Assembly (NCBI GenBank): GCA_008933765.1
Contig: WBUK01000010.1
Location: 62,001-126,000, forward strand
Length of the DNA: 64,000 bases
Direction: 5' to 3'
Origin: Ignavibacteriaceae bacterium
GTDB taxonomy: Bacteria; Bacteroidota; Ignavibacteria; Ignavibacteriales; Ignavibacteriaceae
Part shown: positions 37,416 through 47,142 of the stretch, in pieces
Position numbering within the stretch: position 1 is the first letter of the stretch
Layout of the letters: every line of letters begins with the position of its first letter
Made by a program: the position numbers and the translations under genes
The notes under the pieces: generated by a model
Told to the model about the DNA's origin: nothing
The model's database searches: none
Seen by the model: the letters and a program-made list of their open reading frames with translations, nothing else

Positions 37416-37500
37416 ACTGCACTTTGTTTATTTGCACAATAAGCTGATCTGTACTCTGTTTATTTACACAGAAAGTTGAACTGCACTCTGCACACAACCG
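37410..37500 (+). repeat. 32-bp tandem repeat starting at the stop codon of the flavoprotein gene
   Basis: Units start at 37410, 37442 and 37474. The first two read AGTTGAACTGCACTTTG and AGCTGATCTGTACTCTG followed by a shared TTTATTT-CACA. The TGA stop codon is within unit 1. A weaker match (AAGTTAAACGCACTTC) lies in the last codons of the gene, so the unit may derive from the gene's own 3' end. The remaining gap to 37741 has no gene. Confidence 0.8.
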
Positions 37501-43856: not shown

Positions 43857-45375
43857 TAAATTTATAAGTCTGACTAATTTGATCAAAGCTAACTGCTTTT
43901 TTATTTTTAATTTCTTTCTTTTCTTTCCGGTTCTCTCCTCAGGTGCATTGGGCAATAGCTCAACGGTGGAAGTTCGAACGGTTGCAGAAAAATCAATTTT
44001 TACTGAACATCCAATCACCGGCAATGGCTCAATGCTGGAAGTTCGAACGGTTGCAGGAAAATCAATTTGTTTTGATTCCCTTAATATTGAAGTTCACAAA
44101 ACTCCTGCTGAAACCTCTCCCGCTGACTCTTTGTTGCCTTTTATGGTAAAAATTGACTCAATCAGAATTACGGGCAACGACATCACTGATGATGATATCA
44201 TACTTGGCGAACTTGGTTTCTCCGAGGGGCAAACTGTCGATTCACTTATTTTGGAATACAACCGTAAAAGGGTGTACAGCCTGCAACTCTTCACCTCTGT
44301 TGATTTTATCCTTTCAAAAGTCGATTCACTAAACTTCCTGACTATCGCTGTGAAAGAAAGCTGGTATATCTACCCAATTCCATACATCGACAGAAACGAC
44401 AGCGACTGGGAAAAACTTTCTTACGGCTTGAACCTGACTATTCAAAACTTCCGCGGCAGAAATGAACTGCTTGCCGGTGGTTTCAAGGTGGGTTACGATC
44501 CCGGGTATTCACTCTTATACAACATCCCGTATCTTTTCCGGAAAGAGGAAATTTCGTTTCAAACAAACATTACCTACACTTCACGGAAAAATAAAAGCTT
44601 AACAGCTGAAAAACTTCACGGTGAAGCCTTCAAACAGCAGGTGCTCAATGCCTCTTTTTCCGTTGGCAAAAGATTTTCGCTTTTCCACAGGCTCTTTTTA
44701 ACCGGTGGGTTTCTTTACATCGAAACACCTTTCTATCTGCCCGGTGTTAACGCCTCTTCAGACAGAATTGACAGATATGGCTATGCTACGCTCAGCTATA
44801 ACATGGATACCCGTAACCTGAACTTAGCCCCCACTTCCGGTATCTTTTTAAACGCCGACTTCACCTACAAAGGGATAGGGACAAGCGATATCAGCTACGC
44901 CACTGCAAATTTTGATTTTAGAAACTATTTCCGCCTTATGGGTCCGTTACACCTGAAGTGGCGCACTGCGTTCAGGGAAACCATCGGAAACTCTATTCCC
45001 TATTATGACATTTCAATCCTTGGGATAAACAACCGCGTGCGGGGGCATTTCACAGATTATGTCGAGGGGCGTGGGGCAATGGTTGCACAGGTTGAATCGT
45101 ACCTGAACCTGATTGAAGACTGGGCGGTTGAGTTCAACCTACCGCCACTTCCAAAAAAACTTACCAGATACAGGGTTAGCATCGGGCTACAGGCTTTTAT
45201 TGATATGGGCACCACCCGTCAGTCAGGCGGCGGATACGATCTTAAAAAAATTCAACGAGGCTACGGGTTTGGTATTACGGTGGCAGTTTTACCGTATAAT
45301 GTTGCCCGCGCCGAAATTGCTTTTGACGAAACAGGTAAATCTCAGATTATTCTCGATGTCGGACTCTCTTTTTAA
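43849..45375 (+). CDS. BamA/TamA-like outer membrane protein (one POTRA plus Omp85 barrel)
   Basis: About 508 residues from a TTG at 43849, which gives a signal-like hydrophobic stretch (CFFIFNFFLFFPVLSSG). One POTRA-like domain follows (IDSIRITGNDITDDDIIL ... YNRKRVYSLQLFTSVDF). The rest is a beta-barrel with RDGYAT-like strands, GINNRVRGHF (the conserved RGF/RGH loop of Omp85) and a terminal Phe (ILDVGLSF). The family inserts or exports outer membrane proteins. Having one POTRA and being short, it is not the main BamA. A 69-bp tandem duplication lies in the linker before the POTRA domain. Confidence 0.82.
   Translation: MNNKFISLTNLIKANCFFIFNFFLFFPVLSSGALGNSSTVEVRTVAEKSIFTEHPITGNGSMLEVRTVAGKSICFDSLNIEVHKTPAETSPADSLLPFMVKIDSIRITGNDITDDDIILGELGFSEGQTVDSLILEYNRKRVYSLQLFTSVDFILSKVDSLNFLTIAVKESWYIYPIPYIDRNDSDWEKLSYGLNLTIQNFRGRNELLAGGFKVGYDPGYSLLYNIPYLFRKEEISFQTNITYTSRKNKSLTAEKLHGEAFKQQVLNASFSVGKRFSLFHRLFLTGGFLYIETPFYLPGVNASSDRIDRYGYATLSYNMDTRNLNLAPTSGIFLNADFTYKGIGTSDISYATANFDFRNYFRLMGPLHLKWRTAFRETIGNSIPYYDISILGINNRVRGHFTDYVEGRGAMVAQVESYLNLIEDWAVEFNLPPLPKKLTRYRVSIGLQAFIDMGTTRQSGGGYDLKKIQRGYGFGITVAVLPYNVARAEIAFDETGKSQIILDVGLSF
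43951..44068 (+). repeat. 69-bp in-frame duplication in the BamA-like gene
   Basis: Copies start at 43951 and 44020. Each encodes GN(S/G)S-EVRTVA(E/G)KSI. The period of 69 bases keeps the frame (23 residues). Only a few bases differ over the 49 compared, so the event looks recent. It lengthens the segment between signal peptide and POTRA domain. Confidence 0.85.
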
Positions 45376-45784
45376 CCCGGCTACAAATCCGCCGGATTCA
45401 CACCCGTTTGAAATTGAATTAATCAGGAAGTGTGAGGAAATTTCGTTGTTACTCTCCGAAGAGGCAGACGCAGCAGAACCCCCTTTTACTCTTGAAACAG
45501 CACTGAACCCCAAAAATCAATATCACGCATTCGTAAGAATAATGCTTAACGGAAAGAAAGCCGGCGGGGTTAATGTCTTCTTCAGTCCGAAAAAACGGCG
45601 TTACACTATCACAACCGATAAATCGAAAGATGACGGCGTGAATTTGCTGTATGATATGATTAAAGAGAGAAAAAATGCGGAGAACAGCGAAAAAACACCC
45701 CTGGAGGTGATTCTTCCTCATACGGAGAAGGTGGTACCCAATCGGAATCGATATCTGCAGCAGGATTGGAATCGCTGTCAGTAA
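45356..45784 (+). CDS. Small protein, possible substrate-binding half of a split RNase H
   Basis: 142 residues in a frame that overlaps the BamA-like gene by 20 bases. The core HAFVRIMLNGKKAGGVNVFFSPKKRRYTI with the following DDGVNLLYDMIKE is strand-rich and basic, as would suit nucleic-acid binding. I do not recognise a named family with certainty. The frame-0 tail after residue 108 is out of character, whereas the minus-one frame continues as a Ser/Gly/Glu linker straight into the RNase H frame. I infer the two were one protein, now split by frameshift or joined by programmed frameshifting. Confidence 0.55.
   Translation: MSDSLFNPATNPPDSHPFEIELIRKCEEISLLLSEEADAAEPPFTLETALNPKNQYHAFVRIMLNGKKAGGVNVFFSPKKRRYTITTDKSKDDGVNLLYDMIKERKNAENSEKTPLEVILPHTEKVVPNRNRYLQQDWNRCQ
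45670..45676 (+). other. Candidate -1 slippery heptamer A-AAA-AAT
   Basis: In the frame of the 45356 gene the bases group as A AAA AAT, the X-XXY-YYZ form used for -1 slipping. A slip here enters the frame of the downstream RNase H without meeting a stop. A strong GGAGGTGA at 45703-45710 lies 27 bases further on. No clear downstream pseudoknot was traced. Confidence 0.35.
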
Positions 45785-46473
45785 TCGGGTTAGAATCACC
45801 ATCAAAGAATGAGCCCGAATCGCTTTTTAATGATCAATTAGCAACCTCATCCGATTCCACTATAAAAAGTCTTGAAGAACCAAAAAGCAACGCCGAACCA
45901 AAAGACAACGGTGAACCGGAAAACAACAGACTGCGAAAAAATATCAGCGAACCAAAAGACAACGGTGAACGAAAAAATATCAGCGAACCAAAAAGCCGGG
46001 AAAAACCCTTAACCGGTTATCATATTTTCACCGATGGTTCGTACAACGGCGAAGTTGCCTCAAGTGCTTTCGTATTGGTGAAAGATGGAGTAAAAATTTT
46101 CGAGAGTTTCGGGATTGTGGAAGACAGCCGGCATAGCTCGTCATACCAAATAATGGGTGAGTTTTCTGCCGTTATAATGGGGTTGCAAAAATGCACTGAA
46201 ATGGGTGTGAAATCTGCAACCATCCATTATGACCTTGCCCTTATCGGCGGAATTGCCACCGGCAAATATCAGGCGAAAGCTGAGGTTTCGCGCTATTTCA
46301 GAAACGAGCTCGCTAAGTTTAACAGTCTTAACCTCGATATCGCCTGGAATAAAGTGAAAGCTCATAGCGGGGTGAAATGGAACGAACTTGCGGATAAACT
46401 CGCAAATCTGGCTTTTAAAAAAAATGAGGAACTTTCTCTTGAAGAATTTCTCAGAAAAGATTTCGGCGGGTAA
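45766..46473 (+). CDS. RNase H-like ribonuclease (type HI)
   Basis: A 235-residue frame whose last 150 residues are an RNase HI domain: FTDGSYNG (first Asp), MGEFSAVIMGL (Glu), IHYDLALIGG (second Asp) and WNELADKLANLAF (third Asp), with KVKAHSG before the last. All four catalytic acids are present. It should cleave RNA of RNA-DNA hybrids. The first 80 residues are a charged linker with repeated EPKDNGE/KNISEPK. The only starts before the domain are poor: TTG at 45766 has no well-spaced ribosome site. The open frame continues upstream into the 45356 gene, hence the split or frameshift idea. Confidence 0.8.
   Translation: MESLSVIGLESPSKNEPESLFNDQLATSSDSTIKSLEEPKSNAEPKDNGEPENNRLRKNISEPKDNGERKNISEPKSREKPLTGYHIFTDGSYNGEVASSAFVLVKDGVKIFESFGIVEDSRHSSSYQIMGEFSAVIMGLQKCTEMGVKSATIHYDLALIGGIATGKYQAKAEVSRYFRNELAKFNSLNLDIAWNKVKAHSGVKWNELADKLANLAFKKNEELSLEEFLRKDFGG
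45894..46000 (+). repeat. In-frame repeats in the RNase H linker
   Basis: CGAACCAAAAGACAACGGTG occurs at 45894 and 45948, and CGAACCAAAAAG at 45984; the last two are 36 bases apart and share AAAAAATATCAG before them. All spacings are multiples of three. They encode EPKDNGE...KNISEPK. Confidence 0.85.
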
Positions 46474-46731
46474 AGTGCTCTTGCCGGAGATATCTCATTA
46501 CTTCAATATCCCTCTCTGCTGCCAATTCTTCTAATAAGTTCTAAAAAAATTACGGTTGGGTATTGAATTTGATGAATCACACCGGGGCAGTTCTTCTTAT
46601 AACTAAAAACTTATAACTACAAAAAGTCAGGAACTTTTTTCTGACCCAAACAGTCTAATATTTTACAAACGGAAATTTTTGTGATTTCACTAACAATCCT
46701 GCGCTTTTCACACCGTTCTGTTTGCCTTATT
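46474..46731. other. Gap after the RNase H gene
   Basis: No gene. A weak hairpin (GTCAG ... CTGAC with an A/T-rich loop, near 46627-46645) might end the RNase H transcript. The rest is AT-rich and featureless. Confidence 0.45.
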
Positions 46732-46762
46732 TTTGCTTTTAACGAAAAATTATCGTATTTTG
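46732..46762 (+). promoter_or_regulatory. Bacteroidota-type promoter before the 82-residue protein
   Basis: TTTG at 46732-46735, 20 bases, then TATTTTG at 46756-46762 (one off from TAnnTTTG). Transcription would start near 46770, leaving a leader of about 120 bases before the ATG at 46894. Confidence 0.45.
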
Positions 46763-46893
46763 CAACAGAAAAATCGGAGTATTTATAATTTCTTAGCTAC
46801 ACAATTTATTTCCCGGACTACAGTTCTGTACCACAGACACTGGTTGTTACGCTTGGTTTTATTTTATTTATTCATTAATTCATTGGAGTAGCG

Positions 46894-47142
46894 ATGACAG
46901 ACAGAATTATAAAGATCGAAAACCCGTTATCTGATCTCATCTCAGATGAGATTTACGAACTTCTTTCGAGCCATAATTTGATCGACGAAAAAGCAGTTCG
47001 TGATTACCAGATAAGAAAGAAATTTAAACAGTTAAGAGCGGGTAAAGTATCTGCAGGCGATGCGATTGATACTATTCGTGAAGAATATCCTTACCTGCAG
47101 TTTGATACTATCAGAAAAATTGTTTATCAAATTAGTAAATAA
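46894..47142 (+). CDS. Conserved-looking 82-residue protein, unknown
   Basis: Starts MTDRIIKIENPLSDLISDEIYELL and ends YLQFDTIRKIVYQISK. It is predicted all-helical with an acidic N-terminus and a basic middle (YQIRKKFKQLRAGK). TGGAG lies 9 bases before the ATG, and the gene has its own promoter-like site and a strong terminator, so it is probably real and separately expressed. No family recognised; a small nucleic-acid or protein-binding regulator is possible. Confidence 0.7.
   Translation: MTDRIIKIENPLSDLISDEIYELLSSHNLIDEKAVRDYQIRKKFKQLRAGKVSAGDAIDTIREEYPYLQFDTIRKIVYQISK

Follow-up and report, generated by a model that had tools for sequence, protein, structure and literature searches.

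A two-domain RNase HI gene probably split by a recent frame change within its linker in an Ignavibacteriaceae bacterium

We analysed a 64,000-nucleotide stretch of DNA from an Ignavibacteriaceae bacterium (the window), in which an RNase H gene is divided between two overlapping reading frames. The gene has very probably been broken by a recent indel or consensus error in its linker, and not by programmed frameshifting. On present evidence a mutation and a consensus error are about equally likely, and we infer both the recency and the nature of the event. The ancestor would have been one gene comprising an accessory domain, a short linker and RNase HI. In the lineage of the window the linker would have expanded to ~110 residues, read in frame B. 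One recent event with a net -1 effect on the frame (an indel, or an equivalent error in the consensus), likeliest at or just past the second of two A-runs, would then have parted the two domains. For annotation, the two ORFs are best treated as a single, disrupted RNase HI gene, and the split as an ordinary event.

Gene layout and the two domains

The frame A ORF (45356–45784, plus strand) runs from an ATG at 45356 to a TAA at 45782–45784 and encodes 142 amino acids, including the N-terminal accessory domain. Frame B (45664–46473, plus strand) is open for 269 codons, stop included, and carries the linker and the RNase H domain. The frames share ~120 bases, counted as 39 overlap codons, and this overlap contains two A6 runs (45670–45675 and 45690–45695). 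The first forms part of an A-AAA-AAT heptamer (45670–45676, plus strand), in register with frame A (AAA at 45671, AAT at 45674), which had been proposed as the slip site and is not favoured here. When the sequence was re-examined, the split RNase H was as the preliminary description had it, with the coordinates of the ORFs, A-runs and heptamer all correct. Its remarks that frame B has no convincing start and stays open well upstream also held: ahead of the RNase H core the TTG at 45766 is the only ATG, GTG or TTG, and the open stretch of frame B begins at 45664, inside the frame A ORF. The overlap also contains a near-perfect Shine-Dalgarno sequence, GGAGGTGAT at 45703–45711, which has no frame-B ATG, GTG or TTG at normal spacing.

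The gene starts inside the stop region of an upstream BamA-like ORF, with a 20-base overlap (45356–45375, plus strand), as it does in three congeners. Its start codon is ATG in the window and TTG in the three congeners. At this overlap, where the start lies within the end of the BamA-like gene, GGACTCTCTTTTTAA is identical across all four genomes.

The RNase H domain (46009–46473, plus strand) matches PF00075 with 35.3 bits, above the curated cut-off of 25.8, and the profile match and alignment with relatives indicate that the catalytic Asp/Glu/Asp/Asp and His positions are kept. The alignment identified the motifs TDGS, GEF, HYDL, KAHSG and NELADK, which we take to be the catalytic D-E-D-D and His positions of RNase HI. 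The predicted model of a relative matches the RNase H1 structure 4e19. The domain appears to be of a divergent subfamily, since its best NCBIfam score is 32.9 bits and misses the RNase HI equivalog cut-off of 140. The split gene is the sole PF00075 match in the genome, which encodes RNase HII elsewhere.

The accessory domain (45356–45676) is predicted to fold as alpha-4beta-alpha (pLDDT 83), and is conserved beside RNase H in the congeners and in a more distant relative. Neither Pfam nor NCBIfam offered a convincing family for this uncharacterised domain, which the intact relatives share, and solved structures gave no convincing match either. From the strand pattern, we had suspected the TBP-like domain of RNase HIII, and fold and profile matches gave this no support.

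One-frame homologues and the place of the frame change

A one-frame fusion, which the preliminary description had suggested seeking in relatives, was found in four related genomes (G001, G002, G003 and G010). In the congeneric G001, G002 and G003, both domains lie in a single open frame of 257–261 amino acids with a linker of ~10–15 residues; queries with RNase H and with frame A each retrieve these same three congeneric genomes. In G010, more distant, both domains lie in one 256-codon frame. Close relatives thus carry intact one-frame homologues, as expected for a recent indel or error. Two separate genes, the outcome that would have spoken against one apparently split gene, were looked for in relatives and not seen. 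In a further genome (G027, L007:1186–1920, minus strand) the order is reversed relative to the other relatives, with the RNase H domain first and a small strand-rich domain behind it; this C-terminal domain gave no significant profile match to the N-domain of the window, so their homology is not proved. A search of viral contigs returned distant RNase H only.

In frame A, homology between the window and its relatives stops at ~45676, and in frame B it begins again at ~46000, which places the break in a lineage-specific, non-conserved linker. The window linker of ~110 residues is itself specific to this lineage and consists partly of in-frame 18-base repeats. These form an indel-free tandem array of 18/36 bases (45877–45994, plus strand). 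The repeat period is divisible by three and frame B reads the units as EPKDNG-like, which makes it probable that the linker expanded under translation in that frame.

To place the frame change, we modelled codon preference from 289 long ORFs in the same genome. The likeliest interval for the change from A to B is 45689–45746 (plus strand; within ~3 log units of the best position), an estimate that can be no more than approximate for a disordered linker, as the model derives from ordinary genes. The second A6 run (45690–45695, plus strand) is the earliest position that fits this estimate, and crossing at the heptamer is worse by 7.3 log units. Frame B is coding-like from 45697 to 45784, with a score that 0.7% of off-frame windows reach, and frame A has a negative score beyond 45698. 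By codon preference, then, the frame most likely changes from the second A-run onwards rather than at the heptamer. A change there would leave a more ordinary linker.

A probable recent break and its alternatives

The two halves of the gene show identities of 0.30 and 0.315 to the G010 outgroup in the two domains, compared with 0.21–0.24 and 0.29–0.35 for the intact relatives. Neither half has accumulated decay; both are unaccelerated and conserved as in the intact relatives. Because both are as close to the outgroup as the intact relatives, and because the catalytic residues are kept, the break would be young.

We then considered how often such breaks occur in this assembly. In a comparison with G003 that extended to 1.6 Mb, two of 327 G003 genes set against ~1.05 Mb of the window genome are frame-broken in the window genome, and in the converse comparison two of 278 are broken the other way. 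With so few genes broken, the assembly is not riddled with indels, yet such breaks occur. The two broken here are the split RNase H and a hybrid histidine kinase at C35:37046–39155. The low rate (one gene broken for every ~160 kb of coding sequence compared) is also a point against an accidental break, since there was no prior reason to expect this very gene to be broken; the presence of a slippery-type heptamer in the overlap is another. The hybrid histidine kinase (G000:C35:37046–39155, L017, outside the window) lies in several frames, with a frame change near C35:38690 and the kinase and receiver parts in separate ORFs near 37450, and is in one frame in G003.

Of the alternatives, gene fission with translational coupling has a slim chance. 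Here frame A would end at 45784 and ribosomes would restart at the TTG at 45766, giving a separate RNase H of 235 residues. This TTG sits 16 nt ahead of the frame-A stop, the split gene's own start uses a similar 20-base overlap with the preceding gene, and frame B is coding-like downstream. However, the sole SD-like bases, AGGA, directly abut the TTG without a spacer, and a start codon so near a stop often arises by chance (an estimate, not a computed value). Frame B is moreover coding-like upstream of the TTG too (45697–45784), and separate genes are not seen in the relatives.

Programmed -1 ribosomal frameshifting at A-AAA-AAT (45670–45676) would yield two products, a short accessory-domain protein and a full RNase H fusion, and we consider it improbable. 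The heptamer lies within the overlap, where frame B is already open, and has the register that a slip requires; both halves retain their conservation. X-XXZ-ZZN heptamers are mostly shift-prone to some degree in E. coli, with A-AAA-AAG among the best (PMC4066793), although the all-A heptamer named there among the most efficient is AAG, not AAT. The genome tolerates such heptamers: 460 in-register A-AAA-AAN heptamers occur among 293,198 codons (~1 per 640 codons). One would therefore be expected in the overlap with a chance of ~6% (39 codons × 460/293,198), and any X-XXY-YYN with a chance of ~32%, so the presence of the heptamer is close to chance. The -1 frame that follows it, at 267 codons, is not chance, because only this site and one other of the 460 reach 200 codons.

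The remaining tests also bear against a programmed shift. No SD-like stimulator, using motifs taken from PMC4066793, was found 6–17 nt upstream of the heptamer. The downstream fold is average (z of +0.1 to +1.3 against shuffles), with 53% of the 460 control heptamers folding as well, and thus no stimulatory structure above background was found; an Rfam search at 44800–47000 gave no match. Neither the frame relation nor the site is conserved in the homologues, as all four related genomes carrying the domain pair need no shift. A survey by GeneTack called programmed frameshifting only where five or more cases formed a cluster that shared a conserved site; unclustered singletons that were validated by comparison with intact homologues it put down to error or to a recent indel (PMC3711429). 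The -1 slip at 45670–45676 that had been taken to join both domains is therefore not upheld, and programmed frameshifting as the best explanation is rejected on the homologues, the stimulator scan, the fold controls and codon preference. Of the three options first offered (programmed shifting, a fresh mutation or a sequencing error), the recent indel or consensus error remains. That a programmed -1 frameshift evolved only in this lineage, within the expanded RNase H linker, so that one gene gives both the accessory domain on its own and the complete fusion, is very unlikely.

Transcriptional slippage on the two A6 runs of the overlap, giving mixed mRNAs of which part would be in frame, has a negligible probability, as selection against slippage is evident only at ~nine A or T in a large share of bacterial genomes (PMC1088944) and in-frame six-A runs are common in this genome.

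Were the recent break a mutation, the accessory domain would be produced by itself, and RNase HI probably in small amounts. With a real break, the only routes to RNase H would be restarting near 45766 or slipping at a low level; a restart near the frame-A stop could release free RNase H. The species would then rely on the restarted RNase H or on RNase HII, which might do some of the work.

Comparison with known systems

The window resembles -1 programmed frameshifting of the dnaX or IS type (A-AAA-AAG signals) in that its ORF overlap contains an in-register all-A heptamer, and differs in lacking an SD-like stimulator, a special downstream structure and conservation, and in having AAT instead of AAG. 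An accessory nucleic-acid-binding domain, dsRHbd, has been described in RNase HI (PMC1950709), and there too the catalytic domain carries a small additional domain at its N- or C-terminal side; the accessory domain of the window differs in having no convincing Pfam, NCBIfam or solved-fold match. Like the singleton frame-disrupted genes of GeneTack (PMC3711429), the window has an isolated frame transition, validated by intact homologues, and no conserved clustered site. Unlike those singletons, its break lies within a long lineage-specific linker, so that the two domains stay complete.
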